64,000 nucleotides of DNA. Origin: an uncultured Carboxylicivirga sp. (GTDB taxonomy: Bacteria; Bacteroidota; Bacteroidia; Bacteroidales; Marinilabiliaceae). Shown in pieces: positions 16,085-33,639 of this stretch (position 1 is its first letter; each line of letters begins with the position of its first letter). The position numbers were made by a program, and so were the translations under genes. The DNA is taken from positions 1,178,001 through 1,242,000 of the forward strand of contig NZ_OY764327.1 of the NCBI RefSeq assembly GCF_963668385.1, given 5' to 3'. Under the pieces are notes generated by a model. The model worked only from the letters and a program-made list of their open reading frames with translations, searched no databases and had not been told where the DNA came from.

Positions 16085-16184
16085 ATTTAGATGTACATTT
16101 TTATCCTTTGTAAAAATGCTTAAATTTTGTGTTCACAAATTATAAATATTGTATAAAATGCAATTATCCCATCATTTTAAACGC

Positions 16185-17156: not shown

Positions 17157-17286
17157 TCTTCAGATCATTTAATATTCAAAGAACACATTTTTATATAATC
17201 AAATACTAACAAATCTTTTAGCTGCTTATTTTACTTGATAAAATGGCTTATTCGGGACATTTACGAGCGTAAGCAAAGTATACCTT

Positions 17287-17334
17287 GGAAACTTTTAACA
17301 TCCTTTTGGTTTCCTAGATAAATATAGTTTCCTA
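17287..17334. promoter_or_regulatory. Candidate TetR operator (GGAAAC/GTTTCC repeats)
   Basis: GGAAAC at 17287-17292 is inverted against GTTTCC at 17309-17314. GTTTCCTA occurs twice in direct orientation (17309-17316 and 17327-17334, 18 bp apart). The repeats overlap the spacer between a TTTTG (-33 like, 17304-17308) and the -7 box, where a repressor would block transcription. Related sequence is found upstream of the second tetR. Confidence 0.5.
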
Positions 17335-17340
17335 TATTCG
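17333..17340 (+). promoter_or_regulatory. -7 box of efflux operon 1 (leaderless start)
   Basis: TATATTCG, one base from TAnnTTTG, ends 7 bp before the tetR ATG at 17348. Transcription would therefore begin at or next to the A of the start codon. Confidence 0.55.
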
Positions 17341-17347
17341 CATCGTT

Positions 17348-17971
17348 ATGGAAGATAAAAGGCTACAAATAATTAAACAATCAGCTTCGCTTTTTCACCA
17401 ATTTGGCATAAAAAGTGTAAGTATGGATGATATTGCCCGAGAGTTAGGAATGTCGAAAAAAACCTTGTATCAATTTATAAAAGACAAGAATGATCTTGTG
17501 GAAAGTGTTGTTGAATTTAACAGGGATTTGTTTACAGATTTCTTATCTGCTTTTAAAAATAATTCACTCAATGCCATAGAACAGTTCTATTCATATCAAA
17601 TGCGTATGATCGAACACTTCCCCAAGTACAATCCGTCTATGCTCTATGATTTAAAAAAATATTATCCCTTGCTACTTAATGATATCATTGAAAAACGCAA
17701 AAACTTAATGCTCGAGGCTAATATTGCAAACCTTGAAAAAGGCAAAAAAGAGGGATTTTATCATGCCGATATTGATTCAAAAATCATATCTAAATTACAG
17801 GTTGGCAATCAAAACTATGTATTTGATCCATCGAATGGTCTTTTCACAGACGCTGATTTAAATGATCATAAGGTACTGGAACAGCTCTATAAATATCACT
17901 TCCGCGGAATTTGCACACAAAGCGGAATTGATGAACTAAAAAGAGTTTTCAAACACGTTTACGCAGAATAA
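17348..17971 (+). CDS. TetR/AcrR-family regulator of efflux operon 1
   Basis: 207 residues. The N-terminal TetR helix-turn-helix (residues about 8-55) contains GIKSVSMDDIARELGMSKKT followed by LYQFIKDKNDLV. The all-helical C-terminal ligand domain is of the type found in Bacteroidota regulators in front of tolC-RND operons. It is the first gene of the operon, 28 bp before tolC, so it probably represses itself and the pump. It is a clear paralogue of the regulator at 24632 (shared KSVSMDDIARE, MSKKTLYQ, LVESVV, RFPRYNPSMLxDLxKYYP-type and KYHFRGICT segments). The ligand is unknown. Confidence 0.92.
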   Translation: MEDKRLQIIKQSASLFHQFGIKSVSMDDIARELGMSKKTLYQFIKDKNDLVESVVEFNRDLFTDFLSAFKNNSLNAIEQFYSYQMRMIEHFPKYNPSMLYDLKKYYPLLLNDIIEKRKNLMLEANIANLEKGKKEGFYHADIDSKIISKLQVGNQNYVFDPSNGLFTDADLNDHKVLEQLYKYHFRGICTQSGIDELKRVFKHVYAE

Positions 17972-17999
17972 CATCAACAAAAACTAATATCAACTATCA

Positions 18000-19370
18000 A
18001 TGCAAATTAAATGGATACTGATTGTTGCGCTTGCAATCACAGGGAAAGGTGTAGTGGCGCAGGAAGATGCTTACATTGATCGGGATTCGTCTCAAAGTAC
18101 AAACATTGGGCAAACCGAAAACAATAACGAGTTAAACGATAAGTTAATACTTAACCTCAGTGAAGCTAAGGACTACGCTCTGGAATACAACAGAGATATT
18201 AAAAATGCCGGTTTAGCTATAACCGAAGCAAACGCCAAGGTTTGGGAATCAATTTCAGCAGGATTGCCACAGCTTAATGCAACAATGGATTATACTGATT
18301 ATTTAGGGGCAGAAATGTCGTTTCAGTTTGATCCGGATATGCCAGCACAAAAATCTCCTATGGTATCGACCAGTTTTTTAAACATTAGTGTTTCGCAGCT
18401 ATTGTTTAGTGGAAGCTACATTGTAGGACTTCAAACAGCCAAATTAGCCAAAGCCATGTCGGAGAAAAATGCTGAGAAAAGTGAATTAGACGTTAAAGAG
18501 CTCGTTTCAAATGCTTACTTCAATATTTTGCTTGCTGAGCGATCGAAAGAGATTTTAACCCGTAACCTTGAGAATGTGCGAGATCTTCACCGTAATACAG
18601 AAGCCATGTACAAGGTAGGAGTATCGGAATTAACCGATGTTGATCAATTGTCGATTCAGGTAACCATGCTCGAAAACAGCTTACGACGCACAGATCGGCA
18701 AGTAGATATGGCATATGATTTACTTAAACTTCAACTAGGAGTAGATCCGGGAACAAAAATTGAACTGACTCAATCATTAGATGATTTTTTAGAAATGTTT
18801 GATTTCCTGAATGCATTAGTTCAACCTTTTGATGTTAACTCCAATGTTGATTATCAATTATTGGAATCGCAAGAAGAGATTTCGAAAAAGCAGGTATCAT
18901 TGCAAAAGATGGAATATCTTCCAACTATTTCGGCTAATTACGTTCGTACCGAAAAGATTAAGACTCCTATTGTTGATATGCAACCAAACAACGTTTTGCA
19001 ATTCAATATGAACATTCCCATCTTTTCATCAGGTATGAGAAAAGCCAAGGTTGATCAGGCTAAAATTCAGCTTCAAACCTTACAAAACAATAAAGCTCAG
19101 CTTGAAGATGCTTTAAATATTCAGGAGAAGCAAGCACGCTTAAATCTTAAAACAGCTTTAGAACAATATTCTAGTCAGAAAAAGAATGTGGATGTTGCTT
19201 ACAGAGTTTACGAAAATATCAACCGTAAATTTCAGCATGGTTTAGTTTCGAGTTTAGACTTAACAACGGCTAATAACAACTATTTAGGTGCTGAGTCAGA
19301 TTATATTGAATCGATGCTACAAGTTTTAAATGCACATACAACACTCGAAAAACTATTTAACAATCTGTAA
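18000..19370 (+). CDS. TolC-family outer-membrane efflux protein (pump 1)
   Basis: 456 residues: signal peptide (MQIKWILIVALAITGKGVVA), then two outer-membrane-efflux repeats with long alpha-helical hairpins, the usual TolC length. Typical phrases are LNLSEAKDYALEYNRDIKNA, SNAYFNILLAERSKEILTRN and MYKVGVSELTDVDQLSIQV in the first half, and QARLNLKTALEQYSSQKKNV and FQHGLVSSLDLTTANNNYLG in the second. It would form the trimeric outer-membrane duct of the pump encoded by the next two genes. It lies 28 bp after tetR and 27 bp before the membrane fusion protein gene. Confidence 0.93.
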   Translation: MQIKWILIVALAITGKGVVAQEDAYIDRDSSQSTNIGQTENNNELNDKLILNLSEAKDYALEYNRDIKNAGLAITEANAKVWESISAGLPQLNATMDYTDYLGAEMSFQFDPDMPAQKSPMVSTSFLNISVSQLLFSGSYIVGLQTAKLAKAMSEKNAEKSELDVKELVSNAYFNILLAERSKEILTRNLENVRDLHRNTEAMYKVGVSELTDVDQLSIQVTMLENSLRRTDRQVDMAYDLLKLQLGVDPGTKIELTQSLDDFLEMFDFLNALVQPFDVNSNVDYQLLESQEEISKKQVSLQKMEYLPTISANYVRTEKIKTPIVDMQPNNVLQFNMNIPIFSSGMRKAKVDQAKIQLQTLQNNKAQLEDALNIQEKQARLNLKTALEQYSSQKKNVDVAYRVYENINRKFQHGLVSSLDLTTANNNYLGAESDYIESMLQVLNAHTTLEKLFNNL

Positions 19371-19397
19371 TTCAAACAAGCTAAACAATCAACTATC

Positions 19398-20435
19398 ATG
19401 AAATATAACATTCTTGCAATTGCTATCGCATCATTCCTATTGGCAAGCTGTGGTGGCTCAAAAGAACAAAATCAAGATAAAGAAGAAATACTTAAAAAAT
19501 CGGTAAGGGTAACTACACTTCAACCCGAAACAATTCAAATTAATCAAGAATATACAGCCACCATTAATGCCTATGATAAAGTTTATCTGGCACCCAATAT
19601 GCCAGGCCGTATTAAAGAAATTAAAGTAGAGGTAAACGACAAAGTTCGAAAAGATCAAGTAGTTGTGCAAATGGATGCAAGCCAGTTGGTACAAATGGAA
19701 GTTCAGTTTGCCAATCTTGAAAAAGAGATGGATCGTATGGATTCGTTAATTGCTTATGGCTCCATATCACAACAAGTCTACGATCAAACACAGGCACAAT
19801 ACGAAGCAACAAAAGCAAGCCTTGATAACTTGCGTGATAACACCATCATCAAAAGTCCATTTAACGGATTGGTAACCGGACGTTTTTACGAAAACAGCGA
19901 AATTTATGGTGGTACACCTAACACCAACGATGGTAAGGCAGCCATCTTAACCATTGAGCAAATCGAAAAACTAAAAGTAACAGTTAATATGTCGGAACGA
20001 TTCTTCCCATTAGTTAAAGCCGGCTTAAAAACAAAGCTTTTAACTGATGTATACGGAAAAGAGGAGTTTGAAGGCGAAGTATCGTTGGTATATCCTACCA
20101 TCGATCCATCTACCCGCACCTTTACTGTTGAAATTACTATACCTAACAGTAGTTTAAAACTTCGCCCGGGTATGTTTGCCCGTGTAAGGGTACACCTTGG
20201 CGAAAAAGAAACCATTGTGGCTCCGGCATCGGCTGTATTAATGCTGGAAGGAACATCGAACCGTTACGTTTTTATCGAAGAAAATGGCAAAGCTAAACAT
20301 GTGAATGTAACCTTGGGCGAACGATTTGATGATAAGTTGGAAATTATTTCAGATGAGATCAAACCGGGCGATAAATTAGTTACAACAGGTCAGTCACGAC
20401 TTAATAATGGTGACTTGATTGAGGTAGTTAAATAA
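19398..20435 (+). CDS. RND efflux membrane fusion protein, lipoprotein (pump 1)
   Basis: 345 residues with a lipobox (LLASC, Cys18). The HlyD/biotin-lipoyl-like halves are visible (VYLAPNMPGRIKEIKVEVND and NTIIKSPFNGLVTGRFYENS), separated by a short coiled coil (MEVQFANLEKEMDRMDSLIA). A beta-barrel domain follows, with the typical PTIDPSTRTFTVEITIPN and LRPGMFARVRVHL. As a periplasmic adaptor it links the RND pump to TolC. Short spacing to both neighbours indicates one transcript. Confidence 0.93.
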   Translation: MKYNILAIAIASFLLASCGGSKEQNQDKEEILKKSVRVTTLQPETIQINQEYTATINAYDKVYLAPNMPGRIKEIKVEVNDKVRKDQVVVQMDASQLVQMEVQFANLEKEMDRMDSLIAYGSISQQVYDQTQAQYEATKASLDNLRDNTIIKSPFNGLVTGRFYENSEIYGGTPNTNDGKAAILTIEQIEKLKVTVNMSERFFPLVKAGLKTKLLTDVYGKEEFEGEVSLVYPTIDPSTRTFTVEITIPNSSLKLRPGMFARVRVHLGEKETIVAPASAVLMLEGTSNRYVFIEENGKAKHVNVTLGERFDDKLEIISDEIKPGDKLVTTGQSRLNNGDLIEVVK

Positions 20436-20466
20436 CAAGTGGTTCCATTAATTAAGACGAAAAATA

Positions 20467-23400
20467 ATGAGTATATATAGTACAGCCGTAAAAAAACCAA
20501 TATCGACTATAATGATATTTATAGCCGTAATTGTGTTCGGTATTTATTCGCTGTTTTATCTGCCGGTTGATATGTATCCCGAGGTAGAACCCCCATATAT
20601 TACGGTTATGACAACCTATGTGGGAGCCAACGCAGAAGAGATTGAAACCAATGTTACCAAGCTGATTGAAGATGGACTAAACTCTGTTGACGACCTTAAG
20701 GAGATTACTTCCCGCTCGCAGGATAACATATCGGTAGTTACCCTTGAGTTTGAATGGGAAGCCGACCTTACCGAAGCGGTTAACAATATTAGAGATGCAC
20801 TTGAATTTGTAAAAGACGATTTACCTAACGATGCTGAATCTCCTCTTGTATACAAGTTTAATTCAAGCATGGCTCCAGTTTTGTTCTTTGCCGTTAATGC
20901 CAAAGAAAGCTACAATGGACTGGAAAAAATACTGGACGAAAAAATTGTTAACCCACTAAACAGGGTGAACGGAATTGGTAGTATCTCCATATTAGGTGCA
21001 CCAGGACGAAGAATTTACGTTGAATGCGATCCGCTTAAGTTAGATGCATATGGTATAACGGTAGAACAAATCGGCCAGATTATCAGTGCTGAAAACATGA
21101 ATGTTCCATCAGGACATATTAAAATGGGTCAGTTCGACTACCAGTTGCGTGTGGAAGGAGAGTTTGATGACAGCTACGAATTAGAGAACCTGGTAATTGG
21201 CAATAACAACGGTAAAACAGTTTACCTAAAAGACATTGCAGTTGTTAACGATACCTTCCGCGAAAAAGAGCTGGATGAACGTTTCGAAGGAAACCCGGGT
21301 ATGCGCTTAATGGTGATGAAGCAATCGGGGGCCAATACCGTTCAGGTAGCCGAAGACGTAAAGGCCATGATGCAAGAGTTAAAAACATCGCTTCCTCCTG
21401 ATATTTCTTTTTACGAGATTATGGATTCATCTTCTGATATCCAAAAATCGATCAACAACCTTATTGATACCTTAAAGTTCTCGCTCATATTTGTGGTACT
21501 GGTTGTATTACTTTTCTTGGGCCGATGGAGAGCTACCTTTATTATTGTGCTTACCATTCCAATTTCGTTAATTGTTGCTTTTACCTACTTGTTTGTCTCG
21601 GGTAACTCCATTAACATTATCTCGTTGGCATCTTTATCCATAGCCATTGGTATGGTGGTTGATGATGCCATTGTGGTACTCGAGAATATTATTAAACACA
21701 TAGAGCGAGGCAGTTCACCGCGCGAGGCCGCAATTTATGCTACCAAAGAGGTATGGCTATCAGTAATTGCAACCACATTGGTGGTGGTAGCTGTATTCTT
21801 CCCTCTTACCTTAGTGGGTGGTCAAACCGGAGTATTGTTTAAGCAGTTGGGGTGGATTGTAACCATTACTGTTACCACTTCAACCATTGCTGCTATTACC
21901 TTAACGCCAATGCTTAGTGCTCAATTGCTACGTTTAAAAGAAAAGAAAAGCAATAAGGTTTCGTTATACGATAAATATGTAACCACAACACTTGATGCCA
22001 TAGATAATGGGTACGGTAAAATTGTTGACTGGAGTATTCATCATAAAAAAGTAATTATTCCATCAGTAATTGCCATTTTTATCGGAACCATGATGTTAAG
22101 TAAGCAACTTAACTTCGAAAACATGCCTGAAACCGATCAGAGTTCTCTTACAGTAAACATTGAGTTACTTACCGGTTTGCGTGTTGAAGAAACAATGGCC
22201 ACTGCCCGCGAAATAGAACAATTTATTAAAAAAGATATACCTGAAGCAAAATTGGTATACACATCATCGGGTACTGATGATGAGGGCGGTATTTCGGCCA
22301 TCTTCTCCGAATCGGCCACACATACTATTGAAATGCGCATTAAACTGGTTGATATTGCAGACCGCGACAGAAGTGTTTGGCAACTGGCCGATGTGTTACG
22401 TACAAAGCTCGACCGTATGCCCGAAATTGTAAGTTCTTCGGTTAGCACTGCTGCAAATACCGGCTTTGGAGGATCAACTGGTGTTGATGTTGAAATTTAT
22501 GGATACGATATTAAGAAAACAACATTACTGGCTAACGAAATTGCCGATCGCTTAAAAACCATTGAGGGAGCTGCCGATATTTCAATATCTCGCGAAAAAG
22601 AAAAACCTCAACTTCAAGTTGTTTTCGACAGAGATAAATTATCGGAGTACGGATTAAATACATCAACCGCCTCTATGGCTGTACGCAACCGCATGTCGGG
22701 TTTAACGGCCTCTAAGCTTCGCGAAGAAGGAGATGAATACGATATTGTAGTGCGTTACGACGAAAATGCCAGAAACACCATCAGCGATATCGAAAATATC
22801 TCCATTATGACACCAACAGGTAAACTGGTTCGTGTGGCAGAGCTTGGTAAGGTGGAAGAGTATTGGGCTCCTCCTCAAATTGAGCACAAACAGCGTCAGC
22901 GTATGTTAACTGTATCTACGGTTGCTGGTAAAGGATTATCTCTATCTGAATTGGCAGAGCTAGTTAAAGTAGAAGTTTCTAAAGTAGATATGCCTGGAGA
23001 GGTATGGATTTCGATTGGTGGAGCATATAAAGATATGCAAGACAATACCAAGGATTTGGGATTACTATTCTTAATCATCATTATATTGGTATACATTGTA
23101 ATGGCTTCTCAGTTCGAATCACTAAAAATGCCATTCATCATAATGCTTTCCATCTTATTCTCGTTCTCGGGTGTAGTGCTGGCCTTGTACATTACCAACA
23201 CCACTATGAGTACCATTGCTATGTTAGGAGCTATTTTGCTGGTAGGTATTGTGGTGAAGAACGGTATTGTAATGATCGACTTTATGAACCTGTTGCGCGA
23301 ACGTGGCGTGGAATTACACGAAGCTACCGTAACAGCATGCCGATCGCGTTTACGACCCATTTTAATGACCGCTATGACAACCGTATTAGGTATGCTACCA

Positions 23401-23589
23401 ATGGCATTAAGCGTTAGTGAAGGTTCCGAAATTTGGGCCCCAATGGGTATTACAGTAATTGGTGGTTTGCTATTTTCAACCATTATTACGTTGGTAATTG
23501 TTCCGGTGGTTTATGTGTTAATGGCTCGCCATGGGGCCCGAGATAAAAAAGCTCATTTAGCTAAAACATTTAAGTTTTTAGATAAATAA
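20467..23589 (+). CDS. RND-family efflux pump permease, HAE1 type (pump 1)
   Basis: 1,040 residues, the normal length for the AcrB-like HAE1 group. It has helix 1 (STIMIFIAVIVFGIYSLFYL), the porter-domain opening VDMYPEVEPPYITVMTTYVG, helix 4 with the proton-relay aspartates (SIAIGMVVDDAIVVLENIIK) and the ACR_tran C-terminal repeat (LVGIVVKNGIVMIDFMNLLR, then RLRPILMTAMTTVLGMLPMA). It uses the proton gradient to export amphiphilic compounds through the adaptor and TolC. The conserved DD pair argues for an active pump. Substrates are unknown. Confidence 0.94.
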   Translation: MSIYSTAVKKPISTIMIFIAVIVFGIYSLFYLPVDMYPEVEPPYITVMTTYVGANAEEIETNVTKLIEDGLNSVDDLKEITSRSQDNISVVTLEFEWEADLTEAVNNIRDALEFVKDDLPNDAESPLVYKFNSSMAPVLFFAVNAKESYNGLEKILDEKIVNPLNRVNGIGSISILGAPGRRIYVECDPLKLDAYGITVEQIGQIISAENMNVPSGHIKMGQFDYQLRVEGEFDDSYELENLVIGNNNGKTVYLKDIAVVNDTFREKELDERFEGNPGMRLMVMKQSGANTVQVAEDVKAMMQELKTSLPPDISFYEIMDSSSDIQKSINNLIDTLKFSLIFVVLVVLLFLGRWRATFIIVLTIPISLIVAFTYLFVSGNSINIISLASLSIAIGMVVDDAIVVLENIIKHIERGSSPREAAIYATKEVWLSVIATTLVVVAVFFPLTLVGGQTGVLFKQLGWIVTITVTTSTIAAITLTPMLSAQLLRLKEKKSNKVSLYDKYVTTTLDAIDNGYGKIVDWSIHHKKVIIPSVIAIFIGTMMLSKQLNFENMPETDQSSLTVNIELLTGLRVEETMATAREIEQFIKKDIPEAKLVYTSSGTDDEGGISAIFSESATHTIEMRIKLVDIADRDRSVWQLADVLRTKLDRMPEIVSSSVSTAANTGFGGSTGVDVEIYGYDIKKTTLLANEIADRLKTIEGAADISISREKEKPQLQVVFDRDKLSEYGLNTSTASMAVRNRMSGLTASKLREEGDEYDIVVRYDENARNTISDIENISIMTPTGKLVRVAELGKVEEYWAPPQIEHKQRQRMLTVSTVAGKGLSLSELAELVKVEVSKVDMPGEVWISIGGAYKDMQDNTKDLGLLFLIIIILVYIVMASQFESLKMPFIIMLSILFSFSGVVLALYITNTTMSTIAMLGAILLVGIVVKNGIVMIDFMNLLRERGVELHEATVTACRSRLRPILMTAMTTVLGMLPMALSVSEGSEIWAPMGITVIGGLLFSTIITLVIVPVVYVLMARHGARDKKAHLAKTFKFLDK

Positions 23590-23718
23590 TTTAATGGTCT
23601 ATTAAATTACTTATCTAAGCAATAAAACAATTAATGAACCATCGGACTTAGATATTTATTAGGATAGCTGATAATAAATGAATCTTAATATGTAAGTCAT
23701 GATACTAATTTTAAAATT

Positions 23719-24012
23719 ATGAAATCAGTATTTATAGTATATAACCAAGCCAATACCGAACGGGTAGAGTTTATGCTCGACCGACTGGAAGTACGTGGTT
23801 ACACCATGTGGGAAGATGTTAAAGGACGTGGCACCAACAATGGCGAACCGCGCATGGGTACACATACCTGGCCCGAAATGAACTCTGCACTTATGGCAAT
23901 AGTTCCCGACGAAAAAGTTGAACCTTTGCTAGAAGCCATTAAAAAGCTCGACAATATCAACCTTGAGGTAGGTGTTAAGGCCTTTGTATGGGATATTCTA
24001 CAATCGGTATAA
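23719..24012 (+). CDS. PII-like small protein of efflux operon 1
   Basis: 97 residues, close to the size of a PII monomer. The order of elements matches the PII fold: beta1 (MKSVFIVYNQ), helix A (TERVEFMLDRLEVRG), a beta2/T-loop region with GRGTNNGEPRMGTHTWPEMN, beta3 (SALMAIVPDEKV) and helix B (VEPLLEAIKKLDN), ending in a beta4 with VGVKAFVWDI. The classical uridylylated Tyr51 region of GlnB is absent. PII-like proteins (including the group called PII-NG) are known beside heavy-metal or RND efflux pumps, so a sensory role in the pump system is likely. It lies 130 bp after the RND gene, before a strong terminator. It may bind a nucleotide or metal; this is inference. Confidence 0.72.
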   Translation: MKSVFIVYNQANTERVEFMLDRLEVRGYTMWEDVKGRGTNNGEPRMGTHTWPEMNSALMAIVPDEKVEPLLEAIKKLDNINLEVGVKAFVWDILQSV

Positions 24013-24034
24013 CATGTGTTTATTCATATTAACT

Positions 24035-24068
24035 AACGGCTGCTCAATTCGAGTGGCCGTTTTTTTTT
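24035..24068 (+). terminator. Terminator of efflux operon 1
   Basis: An 11-bp stem AACGGC-tg-CTC / GAG-tg-GCCGTT with loop AATTC at 24035-24061, followed by an uninterrupted T run to 24068. It is the strongest terminator in the window. Confidence 0.92.
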
Positions 24069-24080
24069 GCATCACACCCC

Positions 24081-24345
24081 CTATGCAAGAAGTATAATGA
24101 AACCAACACACCTTAACAAACGCAAGATAGAGGGTATTTACCGTTAACACCCTACAACAAACACACCGAGGCAGGGTGCAAACAGTCAACAGGCCAGAAC
24201 AAACGCACCGAGGCAGGGTGCAAACCATCAAAAGGCTAAAACAAACGTACCGAGGCAGGGTGTTAACAGTCAACAGGCTAAAACAAACGTACCGAGGCAG
24301 GGTGTTAACAGCAAATATGCTTAACCAAACGAACCGGTATACAAG
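24081..24345. repeat. 42-bp tandem repeat array
   Basis: The core ACCGAGGCAGGGTG recurs at 24165, 24207, 24249 and 24291, exactly 42 bp apart, with the linker ending AACAAACG(C/T). Two more degenerate units precede it (about 24081-24164) and a decayed one follows. Because 42 is a multiple of three, reading frames stay open on both strands with a 14-residue period; I regard those as by-products. GTTAACACCCT at 24143-24153 is the exact inverse of AGGGTGTTAAC at 24257-24267 and 24299-24309, so the array can also fold on itself. It fills the otherwise gene-free gap between the two efflux operons. Confidence 0.85.
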
Positions 24346-24577
24346 ATCCATTTTATAATGGTCGCCTAAAGTTGTTCATCAGCCAAACAACAAATTACAA
24401 TAAATAAGATACCAGCAAGCCTAAACATTTCAAATAATATTATGGTTTATATAATGTATGTTAGGGGCCAAACTTTCCTTTCGATTATAAATTAAACAAC
24501 ACAGAATTAAAAAACTAATCTTATACATCAATACTTAAGAATATATCTATAGTGTTGAATGATTGATATAAATAACG
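24346..24577. other. Gene-free segment upstream of the second tetR
   Basis: AT-rich sequence of about 230 bp between the repeat array and the tetR operator region. I see no coding frame, RNA structure or repeat worth naming. Confidence 0.5.
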
Positions 24578-24603
24578 GAAACTATCAAAACACACATAGT
24601 TTC
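24578..24603. promoter_or_regulatory. Candidate TetR operator of efflux operon 2
   Basis: GAAACTAT at 24578-24585 is a perfect inverted repeat of ATAGTTTC at 24596-24603, with a 10-bp spacer. The half-site matches the ATAGTTTCCTAT found in front of the first tetR. It lies just upstream of the -7 box. Confidence 0.55.
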
Positions 24604-24619
24604 TTATTCATTAATATTG

Positions 24620-24627
24620 TACATTCG
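24620..24627 (+). promoter_or_regulatory. -7 box of efflux operon 2 (leaderless start)
   Basis: TACATTCG (one mismatch to TAnnTTTG) ends 5 bp before the ATG at 24632. A TTG at 24617 lies upstream of the expected transcription start and cannot be the initiator. Confidence 0.55.
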
Positions 24628-24631
24628 CAAA

Positions 24632-25249
24632 ATGAAGGATAAAAGACCAACCATTATATCTAAAGCTGTTGAACTCTATCATCAATACGGAATAAAAAGT
24701 GTGAGTATGGATGACATTGCCCGTGAAATTGGAATGTCGAAAAAAACACTTTATCAAGCCATTCATGATAAAAACGAATTGGTTGAATCGGTAGTTGATC
24801 ATTACATCAACCTGGTTACCGAACTACTTTCGGTGTTTCACAATAACGATTATAATGCCATTGAACAACATAGTATTCATGCAAAAAAAGTAATTCAACG
24901 CTTTCCACGTTATAATCCTTCAATGTTGTTTGATTTGCGCAAGTACTATCCAACACTACTACGCAAATTAAACGAGCACAGATACAAAGAAACAATGGAT
25001 GCCAACATTCTTAATCTTAAAAAAGGCATAAAAGAAGGTTACTATCTTAACGATATTAATCCGCACATTATAGCCAAAATAATGTTGGGGTACCAGCAAT
25101 TTCTGTTCGATTCAGCTTCTGGCCTGTTGGACGATAACGAACTGGCCGATCCTAAAACCTACGAAGAAGTTTATAAATACCACTTCAGAGGTATTTGCAC
25201 CCCTGAAGGAATAGTAAAACTAGATGAATTATTCAACCACAAAACATAA
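24632..25249 (+). CDS. TetR/AcrR-family regulator of efflux operon 2
   Basis: 205 residues from the ATG at 24632; an upstream in-frame TTG lies in front of the promoter and is rejected. The HTH region GIKSVSMDDIAREIGMSKKT / LYQAIHDKNELVESVVDHY is almost the same as in the first regulator, and C-terminal landmarks such as RFPRYNPSMLFDLRKYYP and KYHFRGICTPEGI are also shared. It therefore belongs to the same paralogous family and probably represses its own operon by binding the inverted repeat at 24578-24603. Cross-regulation between the two systems is possible given the similar recognition helices. Confidence 0.92.
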   Translation: MKDKRPTIISKAVELYHQYGIKSVSMDDIAREIGMSKKTLYQAIHDKNELVESVVDHYINLVTELLSVFHNNDYNAIEQHSIHAKKVIQRFPRYNPSMLFDLRKYYPTLLRKLNEHRYKETMDANILNLKKGIKEGYYLNDINPHIIAKIMLGYQQFLFDSASGLLDDNELADPKTYEEVYKYHFRGICTPEGIVKLDELFNHKT

Positions 25250-25265
25250 CACAAAAACCCAATCT

Positions 25266-26588
25266 ATGAAAAAGACGATTTTAGCACTTGTAATTATACT
25301 AACTACATCAAGTGTTTATAGTCAATCCGATTCGCTTTCGTTCACTCTGCAAGAAGCCCTGGATTATGCCACTGAAAACGCCTTTGATAGTAAAAGTGCT
25401 ACATACGATATTCAATCGGCCGAAAAGCGTGTGTGGGAATATATTGCCATAGGATTGCCTCAGATTAGTGTGGATGGCCAACTAACCGATAACCTGGCTA
25501 TTCAGGAAAATTCCTTTACCATGAAAAATGGAGCTGGCGAAGAGGTGGAGATGAAAATGAGACTTGGCAAAAAATACAATTGGAATGCAACCGGTAATGT
25601 TAATCAATTACTTTTTGATGGAACCTATTTATTAGGTGTAAAAGCCAGTCGTATCTATGTTGAAATCAGCCAAAAAAACAAAGAAAAAACTCAAATAGAC
25701 GTTCGCGAGGCTGTTGCCGAGGCCTATTACGTTGCTTTGGTGGCCGGCAAAAATCTCGAAACTTTTAAAATGAACCTTCAGGTTAATGAGCAAACCTTAA
25801 AAGAAACCAAAGCTTATTACGAAAATGGTTTCAGAGAATTAACCGATGTTGATCAGCTTAAACTGATGGTTAACAATTCGCGTAATTTATTGCTCGATGC
25901 CGAACGTCAGTTATTAATTGCACAGGCTGTATTAAAGTATTCGATGGGCCTTGCCATTGAACAACCCATTAAACTAAGCGATAACATTGATAATTTGCTT
26001 ATGCCTGTTGAAACGTATCTTCCCGAATCAAACACCTTTAATGTTAAATCGCACATCGATTATTCTATTTTAGAAACACAGGAAGATGCTCAAAAAGCCA
26101 TTATCAAAAGCGAGCAAGTACAGTATTTGCCCAAACTAAATGCCTTTTACAACCTTAGCTACATCGAATTTGGCGATGAATTTAAGGACATGAGCAATAC
26201 CAATTCGCAAATGATTGGGATATCGCTATCTGTTCCCATCTTCAAGTCAGGAATGCAGAATGCACGTGTTCAACAAGAAAAAATCAATTATCTGAAATTA
26301 CAAAACCAAATGCGCCAGATGGAAGAAGTACTGAAACAACAACTGATGGTTGCCGAATCGAACTTTAAAAATGCCCAGGCAGTGTACCTGAATGATAAGG
26401 AAGGCGAAGAAATAGCCTACCGTATTTACGATCGTACCCGCATTAAATTTGCCAATGGGCTTAGTTCAAGTACCGAGCTATCGCAAAACGAAGGTCAATA
26501 TATACAGTCTCAAATAAGTTATATACAATCAACCCTCAACCTGTTGGATACTCATATTAAATACCAAAAAGCCATTAACCGTTTATAA
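25266..26588 (+). CDS. TolC-family outer-membrane efflux protein (pump 2)
   Basis: 440 residues from the ATG at 25266, which begins a good signal peptide (MKKTILALVIILTTSSVYS); a longer frame overlapping tetR has no such signal. TolC-type hairpin repeats are present: SFTLQEALDYATENAFDSKS and GFRELTDVDQLKLMVNNSRN in the first half, and QMRQMEEVLKQQLMVAESNF and KFANGLSSSTELSQNEGQYI in the second. It is a paralogue of the tolC at 18000 and forms the outer-membrane duct of pump 2. It starts 16 bp after the tetR stop. Confidence 0.93.
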   Translation: MKKTILALVIILTTSSVYSQSDSLSFTLQEALDYATENAFDSKSATYDIQSAEKRVWEYIAIGLPQISVDGQLTDNLAIQENSFTMKNGAGEEVEMKMRLGKKYNWNATGNVNQLLFDGTYLLGVKASRIYVEISQKNKEKTQIDVREAVAEAYYVALVAGKNLETFKMNLQVNEQTLKETKAYYENGFRELTDVDQLKLMVNNSRNLLLDAERQLLIAQAVLKYSMGLAIEQPIKLSDNIDNLLMPVETYLPESNTFNVKSHIDYSILETQEDAQKAIIKSEQVQYLPKLNAFYNLSYIEFGDEFKDMSNTNSQMIGISLSVPIFKSGMQNARVQQEKINYLKLQNQMRQMEEVLKQQLMVAESNFKNAQAVYLNDKEGEEIAYRIYDRTRIKFANGLSSSTELSQNEGQYIQSQISYIQSTLNLLDTHIKYQKAINRL

Positions 26589-26598
26589 CCCACTCATC

Positions 26599-27741
26599 AT
26601 GAAAACCAAAAGATTCCGAATAATGAAAAAGTTGGCCATTAGTCTCATCATTCTTCTTTTAGCTGGCTGCGCTGCCACTACCGACGATAACCGAAAAGAG
26701 AAGGAAACCGAACTTGCCGAATACAAAAACGAGTTATCGCAACTTAAAAAGAAGATTGCCAAACTCGAACAGGAGCTGGCCGATAACTCGGGCGAAGGAG
26801 CTATTGCCGTAATTACAACGCCCATTAAACCCGTTCTTTTCGAACACTTTGTTGATATAAGCGGACAGGTTCAAGCTGATAAAAACATCATTGTAAGCCC
26901 CGAGTCATCTGGTAAAATTGTTAGCATCGATGTAAAAGAAGGACAGCAAGTACAAAAAGGTCAGGTACTGGCTCGCCTAAATACCGAAATGATCGAACGC
27001 AGCCTCGACGAGATTAATATCAACCTCGATTTGGCTAAAACAACTTTCGAGCGTCAGTCGAACTTATGGGAACAAAATATTGGTTCGGAGATGGAGTACC
27101 TTCAGTCCAAATCGCAGATGGAATCGTTAAAGCAGAAAAAAGAAGGGCTCGAAGCTCAACTGAATATGGCAGTAGTGCGGGCTCCTATTAACGGAATTGT
27201 TGATGATATTATTCAGCGCCAGGGCGAGATGGCCAATCCGGCAGCACCGTTTGCACGACTGGTTAATATCGATCAGGTTTACATTACAGCCGATGTTTCA
27301 GAGATGTATCTTCAAAAAATTAAGGCTGGCGATGATGTAAGCATCAACTTTCCGGTATTAGATAAGACGATAGATGCTGAAATTTATCGTACCTCATCGG
27401 TTATCGATCGCGATTCGCGTACCTTTCGCTTACGCATCAACCTGCCAAACAGTTTAGGCGAATACAAACCCAACATGCTGGCCGTGTTAAAGCTTAGAAC
27501 CTATGCGGCAGATAACTCAATTGTTGTTCCATCTATTTTGGTGAAGAAAGATTTTAGTGGCGAATTTGTTTTTATCGCGGTTGATAAGGATGGTAAAAAG
27601 ATTGCCCAAAAACAATACATCAAAACAGGAATAAAAGATAATAACAACACATTGGTAACTGAAGGACTTACCAACGGCGACCAGCTAATTACCACCGGCT
27701 ATGCTCAGGTAGTAGACGGATCTGCTATTTCATTGCAATAA
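26599..27741 (+). CDS. RND efflux membrane fusion protein, lipoprotein (pump 2)
   Basis: 380 residues; an alternative start at 26623 (MKKLAISLIILLLAGCAAT) gives a compact lipoprotein signal peptide and is equally possible. After the lipobox (LAGC) comes a coiled coil (EYKNELSQLKKKIAKLEQEL), then the lipoyl-like halves (IIVSPESSGKIVSIDVKEGQ and VRAPINGIVDDIIQRQGEMA) and the barrel domain (SSVIDRDSRTFRLRINLPN). The N-terminal coiled coil before the adaptor domain is longer than in the pump 1 protein. It connects the pump 2 permease to TolC. Confidence 0.92.
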   Translation: MKTKRFRIMKKLAISLIILLLAGCAATTDDNRKEKETELAEYKNELSQLKKKIAKLEQELADNSGEGAIAVITTPIKPVLFEHFVDISGQVQADKNIIVSPESSGKIVSIDVKEGQQVQKGQVLARLNTEMIERSLDEININLDLAKTTFERQSNLWEQNIGSEMEYLQSKSQMESLKQKKEGLEAQLNMAVVRAPINGIVDDIIQRQGEMANPAAPFARLVNIDQVYITADVSEMYLQKIKAGDDVSINFPVLDKTIDAEIYRTSSVIDRDSRTFRLRINLPNSLGEYKPNMLAVLKLRTYAADNSIVVPSILVKKDFSGEFVFIAVDKDGKKIAQKQYIKTGIKDNNNTLVTEGLTNGDQLITTGYAQVVDGSAISLQ

Positions 27742-27760
27742 CCACGCGAAAAATTAGACA

Positions 27761-30700
27761 ATGACAGAAGATAAAAGACCCAAGGAAAAAGTTTCGACCC
27801 GGAAATTTAAACCAACATACTGGGCCCTCGATAATAAAAACACCATCTACATTCTAACCCTGTTTTTAATTGTGGCCGGATGGATGGGCTATACTTCCAT
27901 GCAACGCGAGCAGTTTCCCGAGATAGTAGTACCCTATATATCGGTAAGTACACCTCACCCGGGAAACAGCCCTTTGGATATCGAAAACCTGATTACCCGT
28001 CCCATTGAAAAAGAGCTTAAAGACCTGGACGGAGTAAAGCGTATGTCGTCAAACTCGTTTCAGGATATGAGTTTGATAATTGTTGAGTTCGAAACCGATG
28101 TTCCGGTCGATCAGGCAAAGCTGGATGTAAAAGATAAAGTCGACAAGGCCCTGCGCGAACTACCGGATGATTTAATGGACGATCCGATTGTGGATGACAT
28201 CGATTTCTCGGAGTTTCCGGTATTAAACATCAACCTGTCGGGCGATTATTCTATTTACGAATTAAAAAAGTTTGCCGAAGATTTACAGGATGATTTCGAA
28301 ACCTTACGCGAAGTGCGCGAAGCCGATGTTAGGGGAGTAGATGAGCGCGAAATAAAGATACATGCTGATCCACACCGGATGAATGCCTACAACATCAGTT
28401 TTATGGATATTGAACTGGCTGTACAAACCGAAAACTTTACTGTGGGAGCAGGCGAAATAAAGGTAGATGGTACCCGTCGTTCCATACGTGTACAAGCCGA
28501 TTACACCAACATGGACGAGATCAGAAACACCATTGTAAAAGAGGTGGATGGAAGAGCCGTGTACATCAAGGATGTTGCCGATGTTATCGATGGTTTTGAA
28601 GAACAATCATCTATTTCTCGCTTAAACCATAAATCGGTGGTAACATTATCCATCGTTAAGAAAAGTGGCGAAAACCTGCTCGATGCAACAGATAAAATAC
28701 TGGCCATCATTAAAGATAAACAAGCCAGCGAAACCTTACCTAAAGATTTAACCATCACCATTACCGATGATCAATCGGTATTTGTTCGCGATCAAATCAG
28801 TAATCTCGAAAACAGTATTTTACTGGGGATGATCTTTGTAATGATTGTCCTTTACATGTTTTTGGGGCTACGTAATGCCATCTTCTCGGGCCTGGCCATC
28901 CCCATGTCGATGATTATTTCCATGATGATTCTGAAACAGATTGGTTATACCATTAATACCATGGTACTTTTCTCATTGGTACTGGCACTGGGAATGCTGG
29001 TTGATAATGCCATTGTGGTTATCGAAAACGTTTACCGCATGATGGAGCATGGCGTGAAGACATCAAAGGCCGTTAAAAATGGAACCAGCGAAATTGCTAT
29101 TCCCATTATTTCGTCAACAGCCACAACACTGGCAGCATTCTTTCCATTGATTTTTTGGCCCGGCATTGTTGGTAAATTCATGAGTTACCTGCCCATTACG
29201 CTTATCATTGTACTATCGTCGTCGTTATTTGTAGCATTGGTAATTAACCCTGCATACGCTTCTAATTTTATGAAGCTCGAAGATGTTAAAGAGAAAAAGA
29301 GCTTTCGAAAGTATTTCTACGTTACCGGAGGCATTGCCATATTAGGAGTATTATCCTATCTAATGGGAAGTATACTTTGGGGAAATATTCTGGTGTTACC
29401 ATTTATTATCACCGCCCTAAACAAATACGTATTGAAGCCATCAGCCATATGGTTTCAACACACCTTTTTACCCTTCCTCGAAGATCAGTACGAAAAAACA
29501 CTGCGCAAGGCAATGGGCCGAAAAACAAGTAAAATGCTTATGGGTGGATCCATTGCACTTTTTCTGTTTTCGGTTGTGTTTTATGCCATGATACCAACAG
29601 AAGTGCTGTTTTTTCCACAAAACGAACCCCGTACCATTTATGTAACCATGGAATTACCATTGGGTACCGATATTGAGGTTACCGACCAGGTAACGGTAAA
29701 TTCCGAAAATATTTTATACGGAACCCTGGAACCTTACATGGATATTATAAAATCAGTAGGGGTTAGTGTTGGTACAGGTAAGGGAGGTTTGTTCGACACC
29801 GGACGATCGCCCAACAAATCGTTAACAACCATTACCTTTGTCGATTATCAATATCGAAAAGGACATAGCACACGCGATATAATGTCGAAGCTATCCGATG
29901 CCTATAAAGGATTTGTAGGAGCCAAGATATTTATCGAAAAAGAAGAAAACGGGCCTCCGGTAGGTAAACCCGTAAATATTGAAATTAGTGGTGATGATTA
30001 CGAAAAACTGATTGATGTAACCAGCGATATCAAGCGGGTGATTGACGAAGACAACATCTCGGGTATCGAAAACCTTGAGATGGACCTGAACACCAATAAG
30101 CCCGAGATGCAATTATTTATCGATAGGGATAAAGTACGTCGCATGGGACTATCAACACAAGCTGTGGCCATGGCTTTACGTACTTCGCTTTATGGTAAAG
30201 AGATTGGTAAATTTAAAGATGGTGAGGATGAATACGACATTATGCTTCGCCTGAAAGACCAATACCGATACGATGTGTCTACTTTAATGAATCAGAAGAT
30301 TAAAGTGGATAAAAACGGGGTGAATCACCTCATTCCGATTTCGGCCGTTGCTACTTACGAATATTCATCAACCTACGAAAAGATAAACCGTGTTGACAAT
30401 ACTCGTGTTATCACTCTTAGTTCGAATATTATTGAAGGATACAATGCCAACGAAGTAAACGCCCGCATTCGCGTATTACTCGATGATTATAAAATGCCCA
30501 ACAACTACTCGTGGAAGATGACTGGGGAGCAGGAAAATCAACAGGAAACAGCCGACTTTTTAGTGGGTGCCTTACTCTTTGCCCTGGCCTTAATTGCCAT
30601 GATTTTAATTACACAGTTTAACTCGGGCGCCAAACCTTTGATTATTATAGGTACTGTAGGATTAAGCACCATTGGAGTTTTTATGGGCTTGGGAACCTTT

Positions 30701-31195
30701 AAGATGGATTTTGTAATTCTGATGACCGGCCTTGGAATTGTTTCATTGGCAGGTATTGTGGTTAACAACGGAATTGTGTTAATTGATTACATCGACCTGA
30801 TTCGCAAACAAAAGAAAGAAGAGCTTGGTATGAGCGAGCATGGCCGCTTATCGCGCGAAGAAGAAGTTGAGTGTATTACACGAGCCGGAAAAACCCGTTT
30901 ACGTCCGGTACTTTTAACTGCCATTACAACAGTATTAGGTTTGATTCCAATGGCTATTGGTTTGAACTTCGATTTCTTTAGCCTTTTCGAAAAGCTCGAT
31001 CCCAACATTTATTTTGGAGGCGATAATGCCGACTTTTGGTCACCAATGGCTTGGACAGTTATTTTCGGGTTAACTACCTCAACTGTTTTAACTCTTGTAA
31101 TGGCTCCGGTAATGTATAATCTGGCAGTAAGAGCTCGTAACCGCTTAATAAAAGCCAAACCCATCGACTTGGTTAGAAATGATGAAGACAATTAA
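27761..31195 (+). CDS. RND-family efflux pump permease (pump 2)
   Basis: 1,144 residues, about 100 more than a typical HAE1 pump. Core motifs are intact: REQFPEIVVPYISVSTPHPG at the first porter domain, the proton-relay helix LALGMLVDNAIVVIENVYRM (with a DN in place of DD), and LVSLAGIVVNNGIVLIDYID-type sequence in the C-terminal half followed by RLRPVLLTAITTVLGLIPMA. The extra length comes from an insertion between helices 6 and 7 (residues about 520-570) with further hydrophobic segments and from a longer region before the last helices (GLNFDFFSLFEKLDPNIYFG). The substitution at the second relay aspartate is a normal variant in some RND groups. The substrate is unknown. Confidence 0.92.
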   Translation: MTEDKRPKEKVSTRKFKPTYWALDNKNTIYILTLFLIVAGWMGYTSMQREQFPEIVVPYISVSTPHPGNSPLDIENLITRPIEKELKDLDGVKRMSSNSFQDMSLIIVEFETDVPVDQAKLDVKDKVDKALRELPDDLMDDPIVDDIDFSEFPVLNINLSGDYSIYELKKFAEDLQDDFETLREVREADVRGVDEREIKIHADPHRMNAYNISFMDIELAVQTENFTVGAGEIKVDGTRRSIRVQADYTNMDEIRNTIVKEVDGRAVYIKDVADVIDGFEEQSSISRLNHKSVVTLSIVKKSGENLLDATDKILAIIKDKQASETLPKDLTITITDDQSVFVRDQISNLENSILLGMIFVMIVLYMFLGLRNAIFSGLAIPMSMIISMMILKQIGYTINTMVLFSLVLALGMLVDNAIVVIENVYRMMEHGVKTSKAVKNGTSEIAIPIISSTATTLAAFFPLIFWPGIVGKFMSYLPITLIIVLSSSLFVALVINPAYASNFMKLEDVKEKKSFRKYFYVTGGIAILGVLSYLMGSILWGNILVLPFIITALNKYVLKPSAIWFQHTFLPFLEDQYEKTLRKAMGRKTSKMLMGGSIALFLFSVVFYAMIPTEVLFFPQNEPRTIYVTMELPLGTDIEVTDQVTVNSENILYGTLEPYMDIIKSVGVSVGTGKGGLFDTGRSPNKSLTTITFVDYQYRKGHSTRDIMSKLSDAYKGFVGAKIFIEKEENGPPVGKPVNIEISGDDYEKLIDVTSDIKRVIDEDNISGIENLEMDLNTNKPEMQLFIDRDKVRRMGLSTQAVAMALRTSLYGKEIGKFKDGEDEYDIMLRLKDQYRYDVSTLMNQKIKVDKNGVNHLIPISAVATYEYSSTYEKINRVDNTRVITLSSNIIEGYNANEVNARIRVLLDDYKMPNNYSWKMTGEQENQQETADFLVGALLFALALIAMILITQFNSGAKPLIIIGTVGLSTIGVFMGLGTFKMDFVILMTGLGIVSLAGIVVNNGIVLIDYIDLIRKQKKEELGMSEHGRLSREEEVECITRAGKTRLRPVLLTAITTVLGLIPMAIGLNFDFFSLFEKLDPNIYFGGDNADFWSPMAWTVIFGLTTSTVLTLVMAPVMYNLAVRARNRLIKAKPIDLVRNDEDN

Positions 31196-31217
31196 CCAAT
31201 TCGAATTATTATAAAAA

Positions 31218-31277
31218 ACGATGTGTATTTACATAATTACTCCATTTTAATAGAGTAATTATGTAAATACACATCGT
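31218..31277. terminator. 25-bp perfect inverted repeat after efflux operon 2
   Basis: 31218-31242 is the exact reverse complement of 31253-31277, with a 10-nt AT-rich loop; a GTTTTATTG tail follows. It most likely terminates the efflux operon, but the stem is unusually long and perfect and could have another function. Confidence 0.7.
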
Positions 31278-31348
31278 GTTTTATTGTTTGTTGATGTCAA
31301 TATAGAAGCAGCCCTCCTTATGTTATTGTAATCTTGTGTTTTACAAAA

Positions 31349-31364
31349 TGCTTCACGTGAAACA
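31349..31364. promoter_or_regulatory. parS-like ParB-binding site
   Basis: TGCTTCACGTGAAACA matches the well-known bacterial parS consensus TGTTTCACGTGAAACA at 15 of 16 positions, including the whole TTCACGTGAA core. It ends 20 bp before the -7-like box of the downstream lipoprotein gene, and so overlaps the promoter. parS sites cluster near replication origins. Confidence 0.8.
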
Positions 31365-31383
31365 AAAAATATAGAAAAAATCT

Positions 31384-31391
31384 TATCTTTA
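31384..31391 (+). promoter_or_regulatory. -7-like box of the 31423 lipoprotein gene
   Basis: TATCTTTA (TAnnTTTG with A at the last position) lies 32-39 bp before the preferred ATG at 31423 and 14 bp before the alternative ATG at 31405. Confidence 0.4.
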
Positions 31392-31422
31392 CTTCAATAT
31401 TATAATGAAGCAAGCTAACACA

Positions 31423-32187
31423 ATGAAATACAGACTTAAAACAGCAATCGCTGTAATTACATTATTATCATCATGCAACTCAAATAATCAAAACAAAGAC
31501 ATTGAGTTATCTGAGTTTTACCGAGTTTATTTCGAACAAAGAGGTGATAAAATGAGACTTTATACAGAAGCAGACTCGTTAAATGCTAATCTACAATTAA
31601 AAGATTTTGGTAATTCAATGTGGGCCTATAATGACTACTTGTTTCGAAACTACTCCAAGACTATAAAATTATATTCACACTTTAAATCCTTATTACCCGA
31701 TACATCAGCCATTAAACAAGAGTTTAAGACTTCGCTTAGAAAGGATATAGAGTTTAAAGAGTTATTTAAACAAAGCTTGATTAACAAGAACATACCCTCT
31801 ATCACCATCGATTCTTTAAGTGTAATTGCTTCAAGGTTTTATTTAGTTCATAGAGTCCATAAACAGATATACATGCACCTTTGTGCTAACATTAACGAAG
31901 TACAAACACGGGAACAAAACGAGTTTTCGCCTTACTACAATGCTTTTTGCTTTATGACGATACGAATGAATGATGAAGCTTCAGACTTAGCATCTACATT
32001 GCTAACTCCCTATTCTACAGAACTAGATAATCAGAAAAACATCAGTGATGTGCGTCTTATGGAAATAAAAAAGGAGGTATTCGAAACTGCGTCAAAAAAC
32101 AAACAACTACAAGATGTACTAATCAAGGAATATAATAAGAAAAAAGAATTTCTAAACTTTGAATTAGTAGTGTCTGATAATGAGTAA
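31423..32187 (+). CDS. Lipoprotein of unknown function
   Basis: 254 residues from the ATG at 31423, chosen because MKYRLKTAIAVITLLSSCNS is a lipoprotein signal peptide; an ATG at 31405 adds six residues. The mature part is mostly helical (IELSEFYRVYFEQRGDKMRL, SLRKDIEFKELFKQSLINKN, LMEIKKEVFETASKNKQLQD). No family was recognised. It is a single-gene unit with a parS-like site in front of it and a terminator behind it (32206-32249), convergent with hemN. Confidence 0.65.
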   Translation: MKYRLKTAIAVITLLSSCNSNNQNKDIELSEFYRVYFEQRGDKMRLYTEADSLNANLQLKDFGNSMWAYNDYLFRNYSKTIKLYSHFKSLLPDTSAIKQEFKTSLRKDIEFKELFKQSLINKNIPSITIDSLSVIASRFYLVHRVHKQIYMHLCANINEVQTREQNEFSPYYNAFCFMTIRMNDEASDLASTLLTPYSTELDNQKNISDVRLMEIKKEVFETASKNKQLQDVLIKEYNKKKEFLNFELVVSDNE

Positions 32188-32256: not shown

Positions 32257-33639
32257 TTATACTGTTTTTGAATATTGCCCTTTACCACTTTTAAGAGCCG
32301 GATCAAAAGCCATAGCAATATTACGAATGATGAAGCGTCCTTGTCCCTTTACTATGAACTCATCGTTGGATAGTTCCAGCAATTCGTCATCAATAAAAGA
32401 TTGAACTTTCTCTAACCGAAAATCAACAGCAGAATATACTTCTCTTATCGAAACAGAAAAATCATCAGCTACTTGTTTGAAGTCAACAAAGTAATTACAC
32501 ATCACCTCATTAATAACCTGACGAACAATCTGCTCCTTTTGATTTAGCTTATATCCACGTACAACGGCTCTACCATCTTTTTCGACACGTTCCATGTATT
32601 CTCTGATGGTTTTCTCATTCTGGCTGTAAGCATTAAACAACTGACTGATACTTGAGGTACCAAATCCATAAACCTGACCGGTTGTTTCGCGGGTACAATA
32701 TCCCTGGAAATTACGGTGAAGCTTTTTATCTCGAAGTGCAATGGCAAAATCATCTTCAGGCTTGGCAAAATGATCCATGCCGATAGGTACATACCCTTTT
32801 TGAACGGCCAAGTTATAGGCATCTTCCAACATGGTTATTTTCTCATCAGCACCCGGTAATCCATATTGCTCTAACTCTTTTTGTCGCGTCATTACAGATG
32901 GGACATGAGCGTATGAGAATGTTACCAACCGATCAGGATCAGCTTCCAGTGCCATCTTAACGGTCTCATTAAAACTCTCTCTTGTCTGAAAAGGAAGACC
33001 GTATACTAAATCAAGATTGATACCTGAAAAACCAACTTTACGAAGGTAAGCTATCATCTCTTTAACCGGAACACGCGGAGCTTTACGATTGATAGCATCA
33101 AGTACTTCCTGCTTAAAATCCTGTACACCTAAACTAATACGATTAAAACCCATATCGCGGAGCTCATCCACCATCTTAAAATCCAAATAGGCAGGACTAC
33201 ATTCCATCGCCATTTCGTAGCTATCGGCAAAAGTGAAGTTTCGCTTGATAGCCTCAGTAACTCTTCTTATAAGCTTTGCTGAGATAGCATTAGGAGTTCC
33301 TCCTCCCCAGTGAACCTGGGTCAATTTCCGATCTTTGGAAATATCCTGCGAAACCAGGTCAATCTCTTTGATCAGTGTATCAATATAACTTTCGATGGTT
33401 TTAGCACCCATACCTGTGTATGTTGTGCAACCACAGAACGTACATAGTTGAGGACAAAATGGAATATGGATATATACCGAAACATTTTCAGGCGTCTCCT
33501 GATTGGATACAATCACACTCTCCTTGTAATCCTCATTTCCATACTCACTGTGAAAGAATGTAGCTGGGGGATAACTGGTGTATCTGGGCCCTGCAACATT
33601 ATATTTATCCAATAGGTTCCTGTCAAATGTTAACATCAC
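32257..33639 (-). CDS. hemN: Oxygen-independent coproporphyrinogen III dehydrogenase
   Basis: 460 residues, the normal length. It begins with the HemN signature NVAGPRYTSYPPATFF and has the radical-SAM cluster motif HIPFCPQLCTFCGC (Cys-x3-Cys-x2-Cys plus the fourth HemN cysteine), followed by the SAM-binding VHWGGGTPNA and ISLGVQDF. It converts coproporphyrinogen III to protoporphyrinogen IX without oxygen, using two S-adenosylmethionine. The PRYTSYP start distinguishes it from HemW-type proteins. It is the last gene of the hem cluster, 68 bp after hemE. Confidence 0.96.
   Translation of the reverse strand: MMLTFDRNLLDKYNVAGPRYTSYPPATFFHSEYGNEDYKESVIVSNQETPENVSVYIHIPFCPQLCTFCGCTTYTGMGAKTIESYIDTLIKEIDLVSQDISKDRKLTQVHWGGGTPNAISAKLIRRVTEAIKRNFTFADSYEMAMECSPAYLDFKMVDELRDMGFNRISLGVQDFKQEVLDAINRKAPRVPVKEMIAYLRKVGFSGINLDLVYGLPFQTRESFNETVKMALEADPDRLVTFSYAHVPSVMTRQKELEQYGLPGADEKITMLEDAYNLAVQKGYVPIGMDHFAKPEDDFAIALRDKKLHRNFQGYCTRETTGQVYGFGTSSISQLFNAYSQNEKTIREYMERVEKDGRAVVRGYKLNQKEQIVRQVINEVMCNYFVDFKQVADDFSVSIREVYSAVDFRLEKVQSFIDDELLELSNDEFIVKGQGRFIIRNIAMAFDPALKSGKGQYSKTV

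Follow-up and report, generated by a model that had tools for sequence, protein, structure and literature searches.

Chromosomal parS sites are the 16-bp, centromere-like elements of ParABS systems and have been described in Bacillus subtilis, Caulobacter and Pseudomonas. ParB uses CTP, as is the norm for its family, ParA moves the partition complex, and SMC is loaded onto that complex. How far a site may depart from the canonical sequence can be judged from Pseudomonas aeruginosa. There, according to one study, parS1 and parS4, which carry a mismatch at the last base, bind ParB almost as well as perfect sites do, and an intact CACGTG core is seemingly important for binding (PMC4368675). In a second study, binding to sites with two mismatches is seen in vitro but is not significant in vivo, and a parS placed 347 or 449 kb from oriC on one side is functional, whereas one placed at least 330 kb away on the other side is not (PMC5098823). 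The Noc-binding site (NBS) has the consensus TATTTCCCGGGAAATA with the core CCCGGG, and positions 173 and 201 of the protein separate parS from NBS binding (PMC7383237).

The element considered here, TGCTTCACGTGAAACA, lies in a window of 64 kb (the whole stretch of DNA that was analyzed), which corresponds to positions 1178001 to 1242000 of a genome assembled as a single contig of 6,271,090 bases (6.27 Mb). It shares 15 of its 16 bases with canonical parS, TGTTTCACGTGAAACA, the sole mismatch being T to C at position 3 (T3C); the right half, GTGAAACA, is canonical, and the left half, TGCTTCAC, holds the single change. The CACGTG core is intact, and identity as an NBS, with its CCCGGG core, was rejected. 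Like known chromosomal parS sites, the 16-mer is origin-proximal in a genome that also encodes ParA and ParB; it differs from them in its altered half-site, in standing alone at a distance of 154 kb from the genome's main pair of sites, and in being a prediction. With that pair (at 1363015 and 1375894), it has in common the motif, the origin region, and the genome. The pair is conserved in the genus, however, its members being found in 12 and 11 of 13 congeners, whereas TGCTTCACGTGAAACA is found in none of the 13. P. aeruginosa parS5–parS10 are likewise degenerate extra sites outside a main cluster, but they carry two mismatches, where the window site has one (PMC5098823); the single mismatch described as tolerated in P. 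aeruginosa is at the last base and not at position 3. No paper containing the exact 16-mer or its inner 14 bases, read in either orientation, came up in a text search, and the open-access literature matches listed include no experimental work on ParABS in Bacteroidota. Taken together, the 16-mer is probably a lineage-specific auxiliary chromosomal parS, a known kind of site, and its presence locates the window within the chromosome's origin region. The features surrounding it are listed in Table 1; here and below, gene names reflect resemblance recognized in the sequence, except for ParB, DnaA, TetR, and RND, which come from a family search.

Table 1. The 16-mer and neighboring features, in window coordinates
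Feature	Position	Strand	Basis
RND efflux transporter gene, upstream neighbor	27761–31195	+	Pfam ACR_tran
Long inverted repeat	31211–31284		74 bp, aligning with its reverse complement at 92% identity
parS-like 16-mer TGCTTCACGTGAAACA	31349–31364 (genome 1209349–1209364)	+	Sequence match
-7-like box TATCTTTA	31384–31391	+	Resemblance to consensus
Lipoprotein ORF downstream of the 16-mer	31405–32187 (alternative in-frame start 31423)	+	ORF
hemN-like gene, convergent neighbor	32257–33639	-	Recognized from sequence, no family search

Rarity of the 16-mer and its position near the origin

Under a third-order Markov model trained on 840 kb of the same genome, parS sites with at most one mismatch are expected at 0.00077 per 64 kb and 0.075 per genome. 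Three are observed, namely the window site at 1209349, a perfect site at 1363015, and a site with a T-to-C change at position 5 (T5C) at 1375894 (Poisson P 7e-5), whereas a reversed control word finds no place with one mismatch or fewer in this genome and two with up to two mismatches. A resemblance to parS beyond chance is thereby supported, and the assertion of the earlier note that a 15/16 match is very improbable in 64 kb agrees with the model. When up to three mismatches are allowed, the window does not stand out: two places are found (the other is at 42702) against 0.40 expected, and 10 of 100 shuffles reach two. Similarly, sites with two mismatches occur near the chance level in the genome, five against 2.1 expected, and one of the five (1269779) is in the origin region. 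An additional site, TGTTCCACGTGGAACG at 1376120, has three mismatches to the canonical sequence and yet is almost the palindrome TGTTCCACGTGGAACA.

All three of the best sites fall within 167 kb of the 6.27-Mb genome, near the GC-skew minimum, the perfect and T5C sites being 153.7 and 166.5 kb, respectively, from the window site, and the objection foreseen in the earlier note, that such sites might be scattered evenly over the genome, therefore does not apply. The perfect site overlaps a hemW-like ORF at the 5' end of the latter, and mnmG ends at the T5C site. GC skew was sampled in twenty 20-kb stretches: it is negative in all 10 from 4.62 Mb via zero to 1.32 Mb and positive in eight of the 10 between 1.48 and 4.29 Mb, with values of -0.006 and -0.010 in the remaining two. 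Calculated contiguously over 1.06–1.54 Mb, cumulative skew reaches its minimum at 1364581, only 1.6 kb from the perfect site, and the curve is almost flat from ~1.24 to 1.37 Mb (-2471 at 1.24 Mb and -2741 at the minimum). The origin most likely lies near 1.36 Mb, with GC skew allowing 1.24–1.37 Mb, and the window is therefore origin-proximal. The 16-mer is ~155 kb (2.5% of the chromosome) from the skew minimum and at most about that far from the origin, perhaps less given the flatness of the curve. The origin-proximal position is as the earlier note had proposed.

Two further observations concern this region. A strong dnaA match at 5148787–5149272 is ~2.5 Mb from the inferred origin, and the position of dnaA would therefore be misleading as an origin marker in this genome. 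In addition, both of the conserved parS sites give apparent ORF starts (L036; genome 1361868–1363031 and 1375893–1377551), the hemW-like and the adenine-deaminase-like ORFs both opening with M-F-H-V-K-Q, the translation of ATGTTYCACGTGAAACA. The starts of these two ORFs may therefore be annotated too early, or else the coding sequence may include parS.

The genome contains a single ParB_N match (cut-off E 0.001), at 1068616, and a parA-like gene (1067718–1068497) lies just before parB (1068529–1069407). The absence of parB from the window, as previously remarked, thus reflects its location 140 kb from the window site; the parA-parB genes are ~294 kb from the perfect parS and not beside it. When this ParB is aligned with Noc (7nfu), Arg stands in place of a Gln of Noc, and Gly in place of an Arg of Noc before the HARA stretch. 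We take these to be positions 173 and 201, and the specificity residues, as read from the alignment, would then be of the parS type.

Distribution of the word among relatives and other bacteria

Sites with at most one mismatch to parS are found in 45 of 60 genomes (this one included), against one of 60 for the reversed control. In 10 of the 11 congeners that have the T5C site, it shares a contig with the perfect site, at a distance of 13.1–14.2 kb. Conservation is not strictly defining for parS, because site numbers vary between species, but the absence of the window word from the congeners lowers its claim.

The locus itself is variable. A scan of 21 other RND loci (13 from congeners, the others more distant and some of them partial) and 28 other hemN loci, with up to 1.5 kb of flanking sequence that in some cases was cut short by a contig end, found no site with three mismatches or fewer. 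In three congeners that were examined (G001, G004, and G006), larE-larB-like genes adjoin the RND gene; these are missing at the window locus, and a 110-residue piece of the G006 LarE finds only distant matches (32–34%) in the present genome. G006 also has a homologue of the lipoprotein, directly after larB, and the 20-kb stretch around it holds no site with three mismatches or fewer. That homologue (70%) and a paralogue in the same genome as the window (37%) are the only relatives of the lipoprotein among 40 genomes (this one included); no Pfam family exceeds the cut-off, and a query against the genome contig collection found no relative. Because gene content at this locus differs in the relatives, positions 31196–31404, including the inverted repeat and the 16-mer, are lineage-specific.

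Within the order, the exact word is present in three of 393 genomes: this one, Natronoflexus pectinivorans (G019), and G180, where another parS-like site lies at 154, 66, and 5.6 kb, respectively. The N. pectinivorans copy is inside an RND gene, the 66 kb being measured to the nearer perfect site. That of G180, whose partner is TGTTCCACGTGGAACA, is inside an ORF that adjoins a HATPase-like gene and has a ruvB-like gene nearby, a neighborhood resembling the parS region of the present genome. Two copies besides our own compare with 0.40 expected (P 0.06, for an estimated total of 1.35 Gb), and in a class-wide set of 395 genomes, 15 of them from the order, the word occurs in this genome only. The location of both other copies near parS sites is only mild evidence that T3C may act as parS within the order. 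We considered whether the site had traveled with the RND gene, as the N. pectinivorans copy might suggest, and rejected this, as the position differs and the 21 other RND loci are without it.

A scan of named genomes for the exact word returned at least 118 stretches, from which 80 loci, each of up to 8 kb, were taken. Of the 80, 18 also contain another site within one mismatch of TGTTYCACGTGRAACA and the other 62 do not, whereas 40 column-shuffled motifs, also with one mismatch allowed, gave a second site in none of the 80. With two mismatches allowed, the count rises to 26, against one of 80 for a single permuted motif. Two of the loci (L159 and L201) are from one species, and the 18 are therefore about 17 independent cases. 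Four of the 80 loci were recognized as Bacteroidota: Runella (L206), Parafilimonas (L210), Natronoflexus (the G019 copy), and Tenacibaculum (L208). The position immediately before mnmG is a usual location of parS. In the Runella metagenome-assembled genome, the word is between ybeY- and mnmG-like genes, directly before mnmG; in Parafilimonas, it is between a ybeY-like gene and mnmG with an ORF of 224 amino acids intervening, and a second parS site is 706 bp away. The Parafilimonas site also heads an ORF, like the conserved parS sites described above. In Tenacibaculum, the word is inside a gene, with no other parS in the 8-kb locus.

Examination of eight whole genomes that hold the word gave a mixed outcome. 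In Runella, where the reversed control word also occurs once, and in Halobacillus salinus, no further site with one mismatch or fewer accompanies it, and the same is true of Tenacibaculum. In Rothia, the word is ~121 kb from the parS cluster, counted across the record start, and in Alkalihalobacillus, the word and the perfect sites are on different contigs. The T3C variant is thus found among the predicted parS sites of other bacteria, in the 18 of 80 loci and near mnmG in Runella and Parafilimonas, and this pattern of co-occurrence is good evidence that at least some bacteria would accept T3C as parS.

An auxiliary parS or a chance match

The main rival is chance, namely that mutation in new intergenic DNA produced a parS-like word that is either unbound or bound inconsequentially. 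The word is in none of the 13 congeners and is located in lineage-specific sequence, its frequency in the order is near that expected by chance, and it appears nowhere else in the class-wide set; moreover, many windows were examined, and rare words would be expected somewhere among them. However, only 0.0037 sites with at most one mismatch are expected by the Markov model within 154 kb on both sides of the origin, and the exact word recurs in parS clusters and in the slots that parS usually occupies. Weighing these points, we regard a chance match as unlikely.

An auxiliary parS remains our preferred reading, although the 16-mer is solitary, 154 kb from the remaining sites, which counts against it. 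By the P. aeruginosa yardstick, ParB should bind a site that has a single mismatch, keeps its core intact, and is 154 kb away, and binding at the 16-mer is accordingly predicted. CTP-dependent loading of ParB at the window site would be followed by its spreading over the adjoining DNA, which would join a part of the origin domain 154 kb to the left of the main parS pair to the ParB partition complex. ParA would then move this enlarged complex, and SMC would be loaded onto it. We infer binding, spreading, and a role in segregation for the 16-mer in this sense, and if the lipoprotein gene were affected, this would be incidental.

How such a site may have arisen is a matter for a more tentative proposal. 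It is possible, if rather doubtful, that larE-larB were lost beside the efflux operon and that the new intergenic DNA gained a ParB-loading site. With equal caution, we suggest that the partition complex was extended in this lineage and that a young lipoprotein gene came under the influence of ParB. If true, this would mean that individual species of Bacteroidota acquire satellite centromeres of their own. Whatever its history, the region offers a clean test case, in which one genome combines two genus-conserved parS sites with one lineage-specific site bearing a single mismatch. Given that the literature matches listed include no ParABS experiments in Bacteroidota, the hemW/mnmG pair and its satellite are a good starting point.

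The lipoprotein gene and the surrounding intergenic DNA

The consensus of the -7 box is TAnnTTTG. As the earlier note described, the near-perfect parS match is intergenic and just upstream of a -7-like box, from which it is separated by 19 bp. It lies between the RND and lipoprotein genes, with 40 bp from its end to the earliest start codon that the lipoprotein ORF could use. The further claim that it overlaps the lipoprotein promoter is only partly borne out: the -7-like box is in place, but the 27 bases ahead of it contain no TTG that could represent a -33 box.

It was also suggested that ParB might silence the lipoprotein gene. In P. aeruginosa, ParB at its native level reportedly represses genes near the intergenic parS3 and parS4 (PMC5521831), and an effect here is therefore possible, but silencing by way of a predicted site is a weak proposition. 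The corresponding rival reading, in which the parS is mainly regulatory and bound ParB represses the lipoprotein gene, draws on the same P. aeruginosa precedent (PMC5521831) and on the spacing of the site from the start codon and the -7-like box. Against it are the missing -33 box and the G006 homologue, which follows larB directly and has no comparable site in the surrounding 20 kb, and we consider it very unlikely.

Least probable of all, to the point of being negligible, is that the 16-mer belongs to a different dimeric regulator, for instance the TetR protein encoded at 24617, and resembles parS by coincidence: it is palindromic, intergenic, and near the TetR gene and efflux operon, but the TetR/efflux promoter has no second copy, the sole further match within three mismatches in the window being that at 42702, and the word is absent from 21 other RND loci. 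Identity as a TetR operator was rejected for want of this second copy in the window.

The long inverted repeat is likely the terminator of the RND operon, and a genome search gave no comparably strong match elsewhere among the matches listed. That the intergenic DNA might be a mobile or repeated element was also considered and rejected: beyond the match of the inverted repeat to itself, matches are short and weak (E at least 0.0015 among those listed). Finally, GC skew is near zero in positions 16001–32000 of the window (genome 1194001–1210000), with values of 0.016 and -0.002 for the two 8-kb steps, and is negative in the remaining six. This block may consist of genes oriented against the replication fork, or it may have been inserted or inverted.
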